A stretch of 63,700 nucleotides of DNA. It comes from Terriglobia bacterium (GTDB taxonomy: Bacteria > Acidobacteriota > Terriglobia > Acidiferrales > UBA7541). Made by a program: the position numbers and the translations under genes. Location of the stretch: contig JAIQGC010000037.1 of NCBI GenBank assembly GCA_020072805.1, positions 1 to 63,700 on the forward strand. Direction: 5' to 3'. The notes beneath the pieces are model-generated. The model saw nothing but the letters and a program-made list of their open reading frames with translations. It had not been told where the DNA came from and searched no databases. Position 1 is the stretch's first letter, and each line of letters starts with the position of its first letter. Of the stretch, positions 5,200 to 57,271 are shown one piece after another.

Positions 5200-6414
5200 T
5201 TATGACAAAAGTCCTTCCTTCTTCCGATACTCCCGATAGCATCCCTCACAAAAACCGTGACTGAACTGCGCATTGGAGTGCAGCGCCACGTACTCATCCA
5301 GCGGAACCCACTCTCCTTCGCCTCGCTTCGCGCCGCTCTCGTCCCGGATTCTTCCGCACACGCAGCACACCGGCAAAATCTTTTCGTATAATTCCAGGCG
5401 CTGCTGCTCGGTCAGGTCGCGAATCGCCACCAGCCCGGCGGGCGCCCCGCCATGTATAATCCGCTCGGCGGAAACTTCCACGGAAACGGTGCTTCCATCG
5501 CGCCGCCGCGCGCGCGTCTCATGCCAGCGAGGCGCTTCTCCCCCCTCCTCGCGCGCTCGTGCAAACGCCAGGATGCGGTCCTTCTCCTCTTCGGCTAAGA
5601 ACCGGGAGATCTCCGCTCCGATTTCCTCCTCCGGTCTTTCGTAACCGTGCAGACGCGCATCGGCAGGATTGGCAAAAACAACTTTTCCCTCCTGGACAAT
5701 GCGCACCGCCACGGGAAGTGCGTCCAGGATGCGGCGGAGTTGCTTTTCGCTCTCCCGCAGGACCTCCTCGGCCTGCTTGCGCATGGTGACGTCGCGGACG
5801 ATAGCGATAAACTGGGCTTCCCGTCCGGTCCAGACGTTATCCACCGAGATTTCGACCTGAATGCGCTGGCCGTCCTTGCGCACGCCCGCGAATTCCATCG
5901 GACCCTTGCCGATCACCTTATCTTTCCCGAGGAGGTGAAATTGCCTCATTCCCGCCCGGAAAATCCCGGCCACCTCCTGGGGCATCAGGCACTCCACGGG
6001 CTGGCCGAGCAGGGCGCCGGCTTCATACCCATGTATTTTCTCCATCGCGGGATTGGCGAATTGGATCACGCGATCCAGGCCAAAAACCAGGATGCCGTCC
6101 TGCGCCCTCCGGGCAACGGCCTTGAGGCGCGAATTCGCGGCGGCCGCCGCCTGTCCGGCTGCCAGCACAGCCACCGGACGCAGGACCGCATGGTAGAGCA
6201 CCGGCAGAGCGATGGCGGAAAGCAGCAGGGCGTCCAGGAGATCCAGCCGCAACCCGAACGGGATTCCTGTCCAGTAGTGCAACAGGATCATTACCAGGAA
6301 CTCCGCGGCAAACACCACCGCCAGGCTGCGCCACACGATCGTTAAAACGGAAAAATGGATGGCGTCACGCGCTCCCGCCTCATCTTCCGCTGGGAATCCG
6401 GAGAAATTGTCCAT
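5200..6414 (-). CDS. Membrane PAS-PAS sensor protein with C-terminal CxxC domain, no kinase
   Basis: About 404 residues. Two hydrophobic segments lie near residues 25-80. A first PAS domain follows (ILVFGLDRVIQFANPAMEKIHG, ending AIVRDVTMRKQAEE), then a second (VRIVQEGKVVFANPADARLHG, ending AIRDLTEQQRLE). The tail has two Cys pairs (CCVCGRIRD and FCEGCYREY) in a small domain often found at the ends of PAS or response-regulator proteins, probably metal-binding. There is no histidine kinase, GGDEF or HTH output. The ATG at 6414 has a GGAAGAGGA site; the upstream ATG at 6486 lacks one. Confidence 0.8.
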   Translation of the reverse strand: MDNFSGFPAEDEAGARDAIHFSVLTIVWRSLAVVFAAEFLVMILLHYWTGIPFGLRLDLLDALLLSAIALPVLYHAVLRPVAVLAAGQAAAAANSRLKAVARRAQDGILVFGLDRVIQFANPAMEKIHGYEAGALLGQPVECLMPQEVAGIFRAGMRQFHLLGKDKVIGKGPMEFAGVRKDGQRIQVEISVDNVWTGREAQFIAIVRDVTMRKQAEEVLRESEKQLRRILDALPVAVRIVQEGKVVFANPADARLHGYERPEEEIGAEISRFLAEEEKDRILAFARAREEGGEAPRWHETRARRRDGSTVSVEVSAERIIHGGAPAGLVAIRDLTEQQRLELYEKILPVCCVCGRIRDESGAKRGEGEWVPLDEYVALHSNAQFSHGFCEGCYREYRKKEGLLS

Positions 6415-6559
6415 CGCGTTCCTCTTCCTGGGATCGGATTCCGGCGGGCAGGAGGGGGCCGCGGATTTCCGTCCGTGCGTCCCCACGCTGCAAAAAGTAT
6501 ATGCTTGTCAGGCTGCTTTTGGAACAGGACGAAGCGGTTTCCCTGGGATGCCCCCGGCG

Positions 6560-51730: not shown

Positions 51731-51815
51731 GAGGCAGCGCCGACCATGAGCCGGAGCCCGGCAAGATGCCCAAATACAGTCTTAATGCTTTGTCCATATT
51801 AAGGTAAACGCCCAT

Positions 51816-51835
51816 ATTTGGTCTATTTCCCAAAT
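51816..51835. promoter_or_regulatory. Candidate operator of the efflux operon
   Basis: ATTTGG-N8-CCAAAT is a perfect 6+6 dyad in AT-rich DNA, 111 bases before the start of the STAS-TolC gene. This spacing and size would suit a dimeric repressor. No regulator gene lies next to the operon, so the owner is unknown. Confidence 0.4.
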
Positions 51836-51945: not shown

Positions 51946-53598
51946 ATGCTGAAGATCACAACAGAACAAATCTCTGGCCGGCTCGTCCTCAGCGTCGAGG
52001 GGCGCCTGGCCGGGCAGGCGGTCACTACCCTGGGGCATTGCTGGCGGGAGCTCCGCGCCACTTCGCCCGAGCAGAAATTTTCGGTCAATCTCTGCGGCGT
52101 GAGTTTCATTGACGCCACCGGAAAAGCCTTGCTCCAGGAAATCCACGGCCAAGGCGCCCAGTTGCTCGCCGAAGGCTGCCTGAATCAATCCATCGTCGAG
52201 GAAATTACGGGCAAAGGGCGCCGCAATGGCTCCTGCGGAAAGCGCAACGGAGCCGGCGGCGCCGCCCTCATCTTTTTTGCTTTCCTCCTGCTGGCCTTCG
52301 CGCCCGCGGAAACCTTCGCGCAGACCGCGCCACCGAGCGCGCCGCTTCCCGCCCCTCTGCGCCTCACGCTCGATCAGGCCGTGGCCCTGGCGCTCAAGCA
52401 GAACACCATGGGCCGCATTGCGGCCATCGAGGCGGCCGAAGCCGCACAGGATAAAGACATCGCCCGTGCCGCGCTGCTGCCGCGCGCCGATCTCGATGTC
52501 AACGACAACGCCCGGCGCATGAATCTCGAGACCGGTTTCGGCCAGCGTTTCCCCGGCATGCCCCAGCACGCCGGCCCTTTCCAGATCTTCAATGCGGGTG
52601 CTTCCTTCAGCGCCCCCGTGCTGGACCTGACCCTCTGGCGCCGCTATCAGGCGGCGCGCAACGGCGCCGAAGCCGGGCGGCAGTCCGCGCTGGCCGCGCG
52701 CGAGCAGGTGACCCTCCTGGTCGTCTCGCAGTACATCGGCACGCTGCGCAGCATCGCCAATGTGCAGGCCTCCGAATCGCGCGTGGCCCTGGCCCAGGCC
52801 CTCTATGACCAGGCCGCCGACCTGCAAAAGGCCGGCGTGGGCACGAGTCTGGACGCCTTGCGCGCCAACGTCGAACTGCAGAATGAAAAGCAGCGGCTCA
52901 TTCTGGCGCAAGCCGAGCGCCTGCTCTCCCTCTTCGGTCTCAGCCGCCTGCTCAATCTCGACTCGCGCCAGAACCTGGTCTTGGATGACGCGCTGCAGTT
53001 CTTCGACACGCCGCAGCCGGACCCACAAGCCAGCATCGCTCTGGCCCTGGCGGCTCGCCCCGAATGGAAAGCCCTGGACGCGCAATTGCTCGCCGCGCGC
53101 AATTTGCACCACGCGGCGGTGGAGCAGCGCCTGCCTTCGCTGCGCTTCGAAGGCTCCTGGGCGTATTCCGGGATTTCCTCCACCCGCGGCATTCCCGTCT
53201 ATAACTACCAGGCCAGCCTCACCCTTCCTCTCTTCGCTGGAGGCCGCATCCACGCGGAAGCGGTTCGTGCCGGCCTCGAAGTGGAAAAATTCGAGCAGCG
53301 CCAGGCCGATTTGCGCTTTCAGATCGCCCTCGAAGTGGATACCGCGCTGGTCGCTCTGACGGCTTCCCGCAGCGAAGTCGAAGTGGCCAATCTCGGCGTC
53401 AAACTGGCCAATGAAGAGGTCCAGCAGGCCCGCGACCGCTTCCAGGCCGGCGTGGCCGGCAACATCGAAGTGATTTCCGCCCAGGACGCCCTGGCCCGCG
53501 CCAGCGACAACCAGATTGGCGCGCTCTACCGCTTCAACCAGTCCCGCGCCGATTTCGCCCGCGCCACCGGCCAGATGGAAAAACTTTACGGAAAATGA
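51946..53598 (+). CDS. STAS domain fused to a TolC-family outer membrane efflux protein
   Basis: 550 residues in one open frame. Residues 1-88 are an STAS domain (ISGRLVLSVEGRLAGQAV, FSVNLCGVSFIDATGKALLQEIHGQGAQLL); the DSSG-type phospho-site reads DATG. A hydrophobic signal-like segment (ALIFFAFLLLAFAPAETFAQ, ~105-125) follows, then a full TolC-type protein (~138-550) with LRLTLDQAVALALKQN, the two coiled-coil hairpin halves and VAGNIEVISAQDALARASDN. STAS is a cytosolic fold, so its place before a signal sequence is odd. The gene starts a TolC-HlyD-MFS operon and overlaps or abuts the HlyD gene. Confidence 0.85.
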   Translation: MLKITTEQISGRLVLSVEGRLAGQAVTTLGHCWRELRATSPEQKFSVNLCGVSFIDATGKALLQEIHGQGAQLLAEGCLNQSIVEEITGKGRRNGSCGKRNGAGGAALIFFAFLLLAFAPAETFAQTAPPSAPLPAPLRLTLDQAVALALKQNTMGRIAAIEAAEAAQDKDIARAALLPRADLDVNDNARRMNLETGFGQRFPGMPQHAGPFQIFNAGASFSAPVLDLTLWRRYQAARNGAEAGRQSALAAREQVTLLVVSQYIGTLRSIANVQASESRVALAQALYDQAADLQKAGVGTSLDALRANVELQNEKQRLILAQAERLLSLFGLSRLLNLDSRQNLVLDDALQFFDTPQPDPQASIALALAARPEWKALDAQLLAARNLHHAAVEQRLPSLRFEGSWAYSGISSTRGIPVYNYQASLTLPLFAGGRIHAEAVRAGLEVEKFEQRQADLRFQIALEVDTALVALTASRSEVEVANLGVKLANEEVQQARDRFQAGVAGNIEVISAQDALARASDNQIGALYRFNQSRADFARATGQMEKLYGK

Positions 53599-53606
53599 GG
53601 AAGACG

Positions 53607-54899
53607 ATGAGCGTCGATCTGGATATTGAATTGGAAAAAGATGTGAACGACTCCACGGTGGAGAAGTCTCCGGACGCGGGAGGAGTCAGCCTGGCGAACC
53701 CCAGGGTCCGCCGGGCCCTGCAAGGCGCCGCAGCCGCACTGGTGCTGCTGGTGGGCGGACTGTTTTTCTATTATCACTGGCGCGAAGGAACCGACGACGC
53801 CCAGGTGGATGGACGCATCACGCCCATCGCTTCGAAGGTCTATGGCCGCGTCGAGCGCGTGCTGGTGGAAGACAATCAGGCGGTAAAGGCGGGCGACCCG
53901 CTGGTGCGCATTGATCCGGCGGGGTATCAGGCCGCGGTGGATCAGGCCCGCGCCATGGTTTCTCTCGCCGAAAGCGAAGCGCGCGCCGCGGGCATTGAAG
54001 TGCCGCGCGTTCGCGAGAATATGGCCAGCGGCACCTCCAGCGCCGATGCGCAACTCGCCGCCGCAGAAGCGGACCTGCTGCGCGCCCAGGCGGCATACGA
54101 CCAGGCGCGCACCGCCGACCTGGCCGTGGCCCAGGCCAACGTGGAACGCTCGCGCGCCGGCGCTAAGCTGGCCCAGTCCGATCTCGAACGCTTCCAGCCG
54201 CTCGCCGCAAAAGGCGAAATCTCCAAACAACAGATGGACTCGGCCCGCGCCAATGCCGACGCCAGCGCCAGCGCTTTGCGTGCTGATGAGCAGCGCCTGG
54301 CCCAGGCCCGGCAGTACGTCGAAGTCAGCCGCGCGGCCTTTCTCGCCGCCCAGGCCCGCGTCGAACAGGCCAAAGCCGCCGTGCGCAGCGCGAAATCCGA
54401 ACTTCGCCAAGTCTCCATTCGCGGCGCCGACGTGCAGGCCAAACTCGCCCGCGTCGAACAGGCCCGCGCAGCCCTGCGCGCCGCCGAACTGCAATTGAGC
54501 GATACCACGATTTCCGCGCCGCTCGACGGCGTGGTCACCCGCAAGCAGGTGGAAGCCGGCCAGATCGTTCAGCCCGGCCAGGGCCTGCTGGTCATCGTCC
54601 CCCTGCGCGACGTCTGGGTCACCGCCAACTTCAAGGAGACGCAGTTGCGCAATATGCGCCCGGGGCAGAAGGCCTACATCGAAGTGGATATGTACGGCAA
54701 GACTTTCACCGGCCGCGTGGATTCCATCGCCGGCGCCACCGGAGCGCGCCTGAGCCTCCTGCCGCCCGAAAATGCCACGGGCAACTACGTCAAGGTGGTC
54801 CAGCGCATCCCGGTCAAGATCCTGCTCGACCCCATTCCGCAGGAAGAGGCCATCCTGCGACCGGGAATGAATGTGTATGCGACGGTGGTGACCAAGTAA
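53607..54899 (+). CDS. emrA: HlyD/EmrA-family membrane fusion protein
   Basis: 430 residues. One membrane helix (GAAAALVLLVGGLFFYYHW) follows a cytosolic start. The lipoyl-like half is GRITPIASKVYGRVERVLVEDNQAVKAGDPL. Then comes a long Ala/Arg/Gln-rich coiled coil (~90-290), the second lipoyl half (DTTISAPLDGVVTRKQVEAGQIV) and the beta-barrel with WVTANFKETQLRNM. It bridges the inner-membrane transporter and the TolC protein. The ATG at 53607 has GAGGAAG; the ATG at 53595, overlapping the TolC stop, is an alternative. Confidence 0.93.
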   Translation: MSVDLDIELEKDVNDSTVEKSPDAGGVSLANPRVRRALQGAAAALVLLVGGLFFYYHWREGTDDAQVDGRITPIASKVYGRVERVLVEDNQAVKAGDPLVRIDPAGYQAAVDQARAMVSLAESEARAAGIEVPRVRENMASGTSSADAQLAAAEADLLRAQAAYDQARTADLAVAQANVERSRAGAKLAQSDLERFQPLAAKGEISKQQMDSARANADASASALRADEQRLAQARQYVEVSRAAFLAAQARVEQAKAAVRSAKSELRQVSIRGADVQAKLARVEQARAALRAAELQLSDTTISAPLDGVVTRKQVEAGQIVQPGQGLLVIVPLRDVWVTANFKETQLRNMRPGQKAYIEVDMYGKTFTGRVDSIAGATGARLSLLPPENATGNYVKVVQRIPVKILLDPIPQEEAILRPGMNVYATVVTK

Positions 54900-54962: not shown

Positions 54963-56552
54963 ATGCGTAATCGGATCCTGGCCCGGCTGCGGATGCCTGA
55001 CGGCTCGATCAACCCCTGGGTGATCGCCGTCACGGTGACCATGGCCACGTTCATGGAAGTATTGGACACGTCCATCGCCAACGTGGCCCTGCGGCACATC
55101 GCCGGGAGCTTGTCGGCCGGCGTGGACGAATCAACCTGGGTTCTGACGTCTTATTTGGTTTCCAACGCCGTCGTGCTGCCCCTCTCCGGCTGGTTTTCTT
55201 CGCTGATCGGCAGAAAGCGCTTTTACATGTCGTGCGTGGCCATATTCACGGTCAGTTCGTTTCTCTGCGGCCTGGCGCCCAGCCTGGGCATGCTGGTCTT
55301 CTTCCGCATTCTCCAGGGCGTTGGCGGCGGCGGACTCCAGCCCAGCGAGCAGGCCATCCTGAGCGACACCTTTCCGCCGGAGAAAAAAGGCATGGCCTTC
55401 GCCGTCTACGGCATCGCCGTCGTCGTGGCCCCCACGCTGGGCCCCTGGCTGGGCGGCTGGATCACCGACAACTTCTCCTGGCGCTGGATTTTCTATATCA
55501 ACGTCCCCGTGGGCGTTGTTTCGCTTCTGCTGACCTCCCTTATCGTCAGCGACCCCCCGTATATGAAGCGCCTCAGCTTCAAAAAAGGTTTTCGTCTCGA
55601 CTATATCGGCATCGGCCTGCTCAGCCTGGGACTCGGCAGCCTGCAGTTCATCCTGGACAAGGGCCAGCGCGAGGACTGGTTCCACTCCGATCTGATCCGT
55701 TTCTTCTTCGTGGTCATGGCCGTCGCCCTGCTCTCCTCCGTCCTCTGGGAACTTCGCCAGAAGGAGCCGGTCGTCGATTTCCGCATGCTCAAGGACCGCA
55801 ACTTCGCCGTGGCCACCTCCGCCATGTTCCTGCTGGGCTTCGTCCTTTATGCCAGCACCGTGCTGATTCCCCAGATGGTTCAGCAACTGCTCGGCTACAG
55901 CGCCGAGCTGGCCGGCTTGGCGCTTTCTCCCGGCGGCCTGGTCATCATGTGCATGATGCCCGTCGTTGGCTTGCTGGTTTCCAGGATTGAAGCCCGCTGG
56001 CTGGTCATGTTTGGCTGCATCGTCTGTTCGGCTTCGCTGTTTCTGATGTCCGGCTGGAACCTGGACGTTTCCTTCGGGATGGTGGTGCGCGGGCGGATGA
56101 TGCAAAGCATGGGCATGGCCTTCCTGTTTATTCCCATCAACGTCGCGGCCTTTTCCTTCATCGCCCGCGACAGAACCAACATGGGCACCGGCATCATCAA
56201 CCTTGCCCGCAACATTGGCGCCAGCGTCGGCGTGGCCACCGTCACCACCATGCTCGAGCGCCGCGCCCAGGTTCACAACGTCCAGCTCAATAGCCACATC
56301 GTGGCTGGCAGCCCCGCCTACGAAAACATGATCGCCGGCTCCCAGGCCCATTTTCTGGCCGTTGGCGCGGACCCCGTGCAGGCCGTTCAGCAAGCCCACG
56401 GCCTGCTCTACTGGATGGTGCAGCGCCAGGCCGCCATGATGGCCTTCGTGGACAATTTCTGGCTTCTCGGGTTGATCTTTTTGCTCATGATTCCGCTGCT
56501 CTTCCTCATGAAAAAATCCCTGCCGCCGAAGGGGTCTTTGGCGGTGCACTAA
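54963..56552 (+). CDS. emrB: DHA2-family drug/proton MFS efflux transporter
   Basis: 529 residues with 14 predicted helices. Motif features of the EmrB/QacA group are ATFMEVLDTSIANVAL (motif D1), FSSLIGRKRFY (motif A) and FRILQGVGGGGLQPSEQAIL. The GPWLGGWITDNFSWRWIFYINVPVGV segment (motif C region) is also present. It exports lipophilic compounds using the proton gradient and forms a tripartite pump with the HlyD and TolC proteins encoded just upstream. It starts 63 bases after the emrA stop. Confidence 0.95.
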   Translation: MRNRILARLRMPDGSINPWVIAVTVTMATFMEVLDTSIANVALRHIAGSLSAGVDESTWVLTSYLVSNAVVLPLSGWFSSLIGRKRFYMSCVAIFTVSSFLCGLAPSLGMLVFFRILQGVGGGGLQPSEQAILSDTFPPEKKGMAFAVYGIAVVVAPTLGPWLGGWITDNFSWRWIFYINVPVGVVSLLLTSLIVSDPPYMKRLSFKKGFRLDYIGIGLLSLGLGSLQFILDKGQREDWFHSDLIRFFFVVMAVALLSSVLWELRQKEPVVDFRMLKDRNFAVATSAMFLLGFVLYASTVLIPQMVQQLLGYSAELAGLALSPGGLVIMCMMPVVGLLVSRIEARWLVMFGCIVCSASLFLMSGWNLDVSFGMVVRGRMMQSMGMAFLFIPINVAAFSFIARDRTNMGTGIINLARNIGASVGVATVTTMLERRAQVHNVQLNSHIVAGSPAYENMIAGSQAHFLAVGADPVQAVQQAHGLLYWMVQRQAAMMAFVDNFWLLGLIFLLMIPLLFLMKKSLPPKGSLAVH

Positions 56553-56617: not shown

Positions 56618-57271
56618 ATGGCGACTCCAGTGATCGAAGCAACGCAAGCAAGCGAACACACTCTGATTCGCGCCGGCCAGCGCGGCGACCGCGAAGCCAT
56701 CGAGCATCTCTTCGCGCGCTACCAGCGGCCCCTCTATCAGACCGCTCTGCGCGTCATGGGCAATCCCGAGGATGCCGAAGACGCCCTGCAGGACGGCCTG
56801 CTCTCCGCCTGGCGCAATTTGCACCGCTTCGAAGGCCGCTCCCAGTTTTCCACCTGGCTCACGCGCATCGTCATCAACGCCGCGCTCATGCGCCGCCGCA
56901 GCCAGAAGGCCCGCCCGGCCGTCTCCCTCGACGACACCGCCTTCGACGACGAACTGCCCCTCGCCGAGCGCTTTGCCGACGACGGCCCCGACCCCGAGCA
57001 GCTGCATGCCGGAACGGAAATCCGCGAGATGATCGAGGAAAATCTCGGCGAACTTTCCCCGCTCCTGCGCACCGCTTTTGTGCTTCGCGAAGTGGAAGGC
57101 TATTCGACCGGAGAAGCCGCGCGCAAACTCGGCGTCACGGAAAATACTCTCAAAGCCCGCCTGTGGCGCGCCCGCCGCGAACTGGCCGAGCGCCTCCGCC
57201 TGCGCCTGCGCCGAATGAGCGACGAAGTCTCTGGCGGCTCGATGGGCGACGAAGCCTGCAGCTACTGCTGA
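56618..57271 (+). CDS. ECF sigma factor, RpoE type
   Basis: 217 residues. Region 2 has GDREAIEHLFARYQRPLYQTALRVMGNPEDAEDALQDGLLSAWRNLHRFEGRSQFSTWLTRIVINAAL. Region 4 has LGELSPLLRTAFVLREVEGYSTGEAARKLGVTENTLKARLWRARREL. No zinc-finger anti-sigma gene follows; instead pheA lies convergent with a 10-base overlap at the 3' ends. The C-terminal CSYC tail (ACSYC) is unusual. It begins 66 bases after the efflux transporter gene and may be its regulator or simply read through from it. Confidence 0.9.
   Translation: MATPVIEATQASEHTLIRAGQRGDREAIEHLFARYQRPLYQTALRVMGNPEDAEDALQDGLLSAWRNLHRFEGRSQFSTWLTRIVINAALMRRRSQKARPAVSLDDTAFDDELPLAERFADDGPDPEQLHAGTEIREMIEENLGELSPLLRTAFVLREVEGYSTGEAARKLGVTENTLKARLWRARRELAERLRLRLRRMSDEVSGGSMGDEACSYC

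Follow-up and report, generated by a model that had tools for sequence, protein, structure and literature searches.

A conserved in-frame fusion of an STAS domain and a TolC-type channel heads an EmrAB-type efflux operon with an ECF sigma factor gene in Acidobacteriota

The window analysed, that is, the whole stretch of 63,700 nucleotides, was taken from contig JAIQGC010000037.1 of a Terriglobia bacterium (assembly GCA_020072805.1). A single open frame at 51946..53598 (+), with an ATG start, encodes a protein of 550 aa composed of an STAS domain and a TolC-type channel. Along the polypeptide the order is STAS domain (residues 1-88; 51946..52209, +), hydrophilic disordered linker (residues 89-105; 52210..52260, +), predicted internal signal peptide (residues ~106-125; 52261..52320, +) and a complete TolC-type outer membrane efflux channel, the mature part of which spans residues 126-550 plus the stop codon (52321..53598, +). 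The linker has a pLDDT below 50, is fast-evolving and is devoid of in-frame start codons. The start codon of the next gene, which encodes an EmrA/HlyD-type periplasmic adaptor (53595..54899, +), overlaps the TolC stop codon (ATGA); TIGR00998 was its best family (5e-76), with 256 bits against a cut-off of 391, and the HlyD domains of Pfam were above their cut-offs. An EmrB-type DHA2 MFS permease is encoded at 54963..56552 (+), with the EmrB profile TIGR00711 at 445 bits (cut-off 230), and an ECF sigma factor gene follows 66 bp after emrB, at 56618..57271 (+). The fusion at the head of a tripartite pump operon, as proposed in a first-pass annotation of this DNA, was confirmed; the conserved ECF gene at the end of the operon had been missed.

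The TolC part matched PF02321 with 162 bits (E 1.5e-47), and Foldseek related it to CmeC, OprM and TolC with E values of ~1e-18 to 1e-15. Together with the internal hydrophobic segment and its A-x-A motif, the PF02321 match characterizes the protein as an OEP-family channel with a signal peptide. The h-region in the window is LIFFAFLLLAFA (residues 108-119), a hydrophobic 12-mer with a Kyte-Doolittle value of 3.02, and cleavage would be expected at ETFA|QT, where the A-x-A|Q site lies at 125/126; topology and cleavage were deduced from the hydrophobic core and this site. Among the fused proteins described below the hydrophobic core was present in 57/57, A125 and Q126 were nearly invariant, and the STAS part was without a hydrophobic N-terminus. 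In the full-length model of the window protein, residues 91-134 are unstructured except for one hydrophobic helix, and both the STAS and the TolC parts are confident. One relative (L124) encodes an STAS-TolC fusion of 605 aa with a longer linker and two hydrophobic stretches ahead of TolC.

The identity of the STAS domain is weak by sequence and clear by predicted structure. Scores were below the cut-offs for PF01740 (17.7 bits, cut-off 22.6; Pfam) and TIGR00377 (19.7 bits, cut-off 53.45; NCBIfam). The AlphaFold2 model of the domain alone, with a pLDDT of 90.8, shows the STAS topology of a four-stranded sheet plus helices, with VIA-align Z scores up to 12.8. Its nearest folds are RsfB, RsbV, TM1442 and SpoIIAA (Z 11-12.8, rmsd 1.8-2.3 Å over 88-90 residues), and the SLC26 and MlaB domains score lower (Z 8-10; MlaB 8.5 vs 12.8 for the best). 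The phospho-site had been read in the first-pass annotation as DATG; the motif is present in the window, but Thr occupies that position in just 5/61 fused STAS domains. A phosphorylatable Ser or Thr before Gly was found in 12/61 fused and 2/50 standalone STAS domains, and a classical phospho-switch is unlikely because the usual residue at this position is Ala or an acidic one. A phospho-switch was set aside as a candidate, since the site is not conserved. A partner kinase/anti-sigma gene (HATPase_c_2) was absent from 53.6-57.3 kb, with one good match elsewhere in the genome (C138).

The in-frame fusion was recovered in 57 non-redundant proteins after removal of duplicates, distributed over at least four families of the class Terriglobia (f1, f6, f7 and f11) and one genome of another class (G387). 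Of 299 genomes surveyed in the class, 133 contain the STAS family, and ~54 of the matches listed were fused to TolC, as counted by hand from open frames of at least 530 aa. A scan of bacterial and archaeal genomes yielded 54 loci, and nearly all of those with complete sequence and an STAS match have STAS and TolC in a single frame; the exceptions are two with the STAS domain elsewhere upstream (L043, L047) and two that look like frameshifts inside TolC (L049, L100). On plasmids, 11 records matched the TolC domain only (query start at 185 or later among the rows listed), and none covers 80% of the query. For 16 close pairs, dN/dS was 0.02-0.24 in the STAS part and 0.03-0.25 in the TolC part, and 0.14-0.76 in the linker and signal peptide, usually several-fold above the other two. 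Strong purifying selection acts on the STAS domain but not on the linker; by this measure both ends of the fusion are functional.

That an STAS gene belongs to this DHA2/EmrAB-type efflux operon, also proposed previously, is borne out by its being fused in many genera and a separate upstream gene in others. A search of genomes for STAS genes upstream of tolC-hlyD-emrB found them within ~200 bp in L093, L095, L096, L098, L101 and L104, and farther away in L094 and L103, and a separate STAS gene also precedes tolC-hlyD-ECF in L154 and L155. In these last two the STAS gene stops 0-5 bp before tolC, the product of which has an ordinary N-terminal signal peptide; the hydrophobic segment and the A-x-A|Q site of the fusion are located where the split-form TolC carries that signal peptide. 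In the TolC tree the fused proteins cluster without forming a single clade, and L119, L122 and L124 make up a second fused group among operons with separate STAS genes. This placement points to two or more fusion events, a reading qualified by the long branches that meet at that part of the tree. An STAS domain in frame with a HlyD/RND-type adaptor (L120:909-2516, -), with an ECF sigma gene upstream and an RND pump after it, and an STAS-TolC fusion accompanied by a second, separate STAS between HlyD and MFS (L118:3327-3539 and 6294-6545, -) point in the same direction.

The ECF factor has sigma2 and sigma4 regions only (Sigma70_r2 and r4, PF04542 and PF08281; TIGR02937 above cut-off) and ends in ...MGDEACSYC, with GMGD(E/A)(A/E)CSYC conserved genus-wide. 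No anti-sigma gene follows it. The ECF gene is at the operon end in every relative of the same type with enough sequence, and it was also found after the operon in L027, L125, L126, L154 and L155. The same STAS family immediately precedes an ECF gene, with no efflux genes present, in L089, L090, L091, L097, L102 and L153, and an ECF gene is directly upstream of an STAS-TolC or STAS-HlyD fusion in L119, L120, L122 and L124. By hand comparison of coordinates, an STAS gene was within ~7 kb on the same strand for 37 of the 47 closest ECF homologues, vs ~1 of ~108 more distant ECFs (Fisher p ~2e-25, a value inflated by ignoring relatedness, most of the 47 being orthologues in one genus); several of the ten that lack one lie at contig ends or MAG gaps. 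The STAS family and this ECF subfamily occur as genomic neighbours at a rate well above chance, also outside efflux operons, an association that is new here. Fused operons without an ECF gene nearby were found in several genera (f6 g63, L110-L118, L121 and L123), and therefore the sigma factor cannot be the STAS partner everywhere. Many standalone STAS genes adjoin sigma-54 activators or Crp/Fnr regulators instead. At L089:4472-7049, L106:3018-7164, L131:6271-8931 and L043:1924-4304, standalone genes of the family have GAF/PAS sigma-54 activators and Crp/Fnr regulators as neighbours, or precede genes for an ECF sigma factor and an aldo/keto reductase.

Upstream of the operon, a putative palindromic operator, GCCCATATTTGGTC, is located at 51810..51823 (+), 134-136 bp before the start codon. 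CCATATnnGG was present in 17/30 upstream regions of relatives, vs a mean of 0.2 for shuffled sequences; the stricter form GMCCATATNNGGKC has two copies in the genome, one of them at 51810-51823. In relatives GMCCATATATGGKC is found at about -141 and/or -183, L011 and L048 having two copies at a spacing of 42-43 bp. The palindrome GCCCATATATGGGC is an operon-specific candidate operator that would bind a protein. A second conserved block, TTAACATC...TCATGCATCTA, at about -60 to -20 in L006-L020 and absent or diverged in the window, may be a promoter or leader; no convincing -35/-10 pair of an ECF-type promoter was made out upstream. No conserved divergent regulator gene was found upstream of the operon in relatives. 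What recurs upstream, at L006:5151-5726 and in 16 further relatives, is a gene for an exported protein of RidA-like (Ribonuc_L-PSP) type.

From these data our main reading, to which a probability of about one half is given, is that the fusion is a pre-protein processed into TolC and a regulator, with the ECF sigma factor as the likeliest partner of the latter in this genus. The STAS domain would be translated first and fold in the cytosol; TolC's own signal peptide, the hydrophobic stretch that follows the linker, would act as an internal signal-anchor, and the TolC part would cross the inner membrane via Sec. Signal peptidase I would cut A125|Q126, which would yield a normal outer membrane TolC trimer for the EmrAB-type pump and leave a stub of ~125 residues, comprising STAS domain, linker and signal peptide, on the cytosolic face of the inner membrane. 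Stub and channel would be made in equal numbers, and the stub would be a regulator dedicated to the operon, its likeliest partner in the genus being the ECF sigma factor encoded last in the operon or some protein that acts on this sigma factor. That the stub is cytosolic, is released by cleavage, stays tethered and may bind sigma factor is what we infer; a single gene whose product is processed into two would agree with the conserved internal signal peptide. Sigma control is favoured in the genus because of the ECF neighbourhood and the anti-sigma-antagonist fold. Counted against control by STAS is the conserved CSYC tail of the ECF factor itself, which could be self-sensing.

A possible, less probable explanation is that the stub acts on the pump and not on transcription: three copies per TolC trimer, tethered to the inner membrane, would bind either EmrB, at its cytosolic face, or EmrA, at its N-terminal tail, in the manner of MlaB-MlaF or STAS-SLC26. 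Action on the pump is favoured because the STAS domain persists in the operons of genera without an ECF gene and because MlaB is a precedent for an STAS subunit of a transporter (PMC7367683), and the STAS gene between HlyD and MFS in L118 and the fusion to an RND-type HlyD adaptor in L120 agree with it. However, members of the family also accompany ECF, Crp/Fnr or sigma-54 activators where pump genes are absent, and its fold is nearer to the anti-sigma antagonists than to MlaB by the Z scores given above, bearing in mind that a shared fold is not a demonstrated function.

Doubtful is a variant in which cleavage itself is the signal, the tethered STAS domain controlling the cognate ECF factor and so coupling the finished export of TolC to expression of the pump operon. 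If true, sigma control of this kind would be new, with STAS released or anchored through the export of an outer membrane protein.

It is unlikely that the STAS domain is a mere folding, targeting or solubility leader of TolC, i.e. an extended signal peptide without signalling. Its position before the signal peptide in the 57 fused proteins would suit such a role, but other genera encode the same STAS on its own, also away from efflux genes, the STAS part is about as constrained as TolC, and close TolC homologues do without it (L038-L041, L044-L046 and L054-L057).

Very unlikely, too, is a separate synthesis of TolC, initiated internally at a non-standard or leaderless start, which would render the fusion nominal. 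Some ATG, GTG or TTG exists in the region in 31/57 relatives, a few with a Shine-Dalgarno-like stretch upstream, but their positions are not conserved. Between codon 85 and the hydrophobic core no in-frame ATG, GTG or TTG exists in 26/57 fused proteins, including that of the window, which has none in codons 76-140; a separate TolC start is therefore unavailable in these 26, short of a rare start codon such as ATT or CTG.

The lost stop or indel considered previously, a sequencing or assembly error joining two coupled genes such as those that lie 0-5 bp apart in a few relatives (L154, L155), is refuted for the family and has a negligible probability, since dozens of independent assemblies keep the frame, the linker and the signal peptide.

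The operon resembles the EmrAB-TolC pump (DHA2 MFS) in having a TolC-type channel, an EmrA-type adaptor and an EmrB-type permease together; it differs by the N-terminal STAS domain before the internal signal peptide of the channel and by the ECF sigma gene in the operon. With the antagonists SpoIIAA, RsbV and RsfB the STAS domain shares its fold, theirs being the nearest solved ones (Z 11-12.8), and a neighbourhood of sigma-factor genes, but the phospho-Ser/Thr is not conserved, no RsbW-type gene is adjacent, the domain is fused to a secreted protein, and the sigma partner would be an ECF factor and not one of SigF/SigB type. Membrane-bound ECF anti-sigma factors of the RseA/RskA type consist of a cytosolic domain, one membrane helix and a periplasmic part. 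The fusion has the same predicted layout and an ECF gene in its operon, but an STAS fold replaces the anti-sigma domain, and the periplasmic part is a whole channel whose removal by signal peptidase would be expected. A candidate bacterial precedent for a polyprotein with an internal signal is cytochrome b/c1 (fbcH), which did not turn up in the open literature and is not drawn on as evidence.

CorE-type ECF factors have a Cys-rich C-terminal extension (PMC8999054); the window ECF is likened to them by features and not by classification, sharing the lack of an adjacent anti-sigma gene and a conserved C-terminal Cys pair (CSYC), whereas its tail is very short and without a CRD domain. MlaB of the MlaFEDB transporter is likewise a small STAS protein that works in the cytosol for an envelope transporter, but it is a separate protein that binds an ABC ATPase (PMC7367683); here no ATPase is involved, the STAS domain is fused to the outer membrane part, and mlaF, mlaE and mlaD are not beside it, the operon consisting of TolC, EmrA, EmrB and ECF. 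No description of an STAS-TolC fusion or an STAS-ECF pair was found in the open literature, outside which many journals lie. Similarly, ECF sigma factors are not known to be under STAS control, and no such case was described in the titles and abstracts of the open papers found to mention both.

In this group of soil bacteria (Acidobacteriota) a conserved gene encodes a single polypeptide in which an internal signal peptide joins a cytosolic signalling domain to an outer membrane channel, so that one gene probably supplies both the pump channel and an intracellular regulator. A family of small STAS proteins is also linked with tripartite efflux and with one particular ECF sigma subfamily; should the stub communicate with the sigma factor, cells would have a possible means of sensing that the pump is assembled. 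For annotation, such N-terminal extensions of TolC should not be taken as start-site errors. One operon (L008, CAJCHZ010000126.1) is labelled as Betaproteobacteria but nests in the acidobacterial clade, and is probably mislabelled or misbinned.
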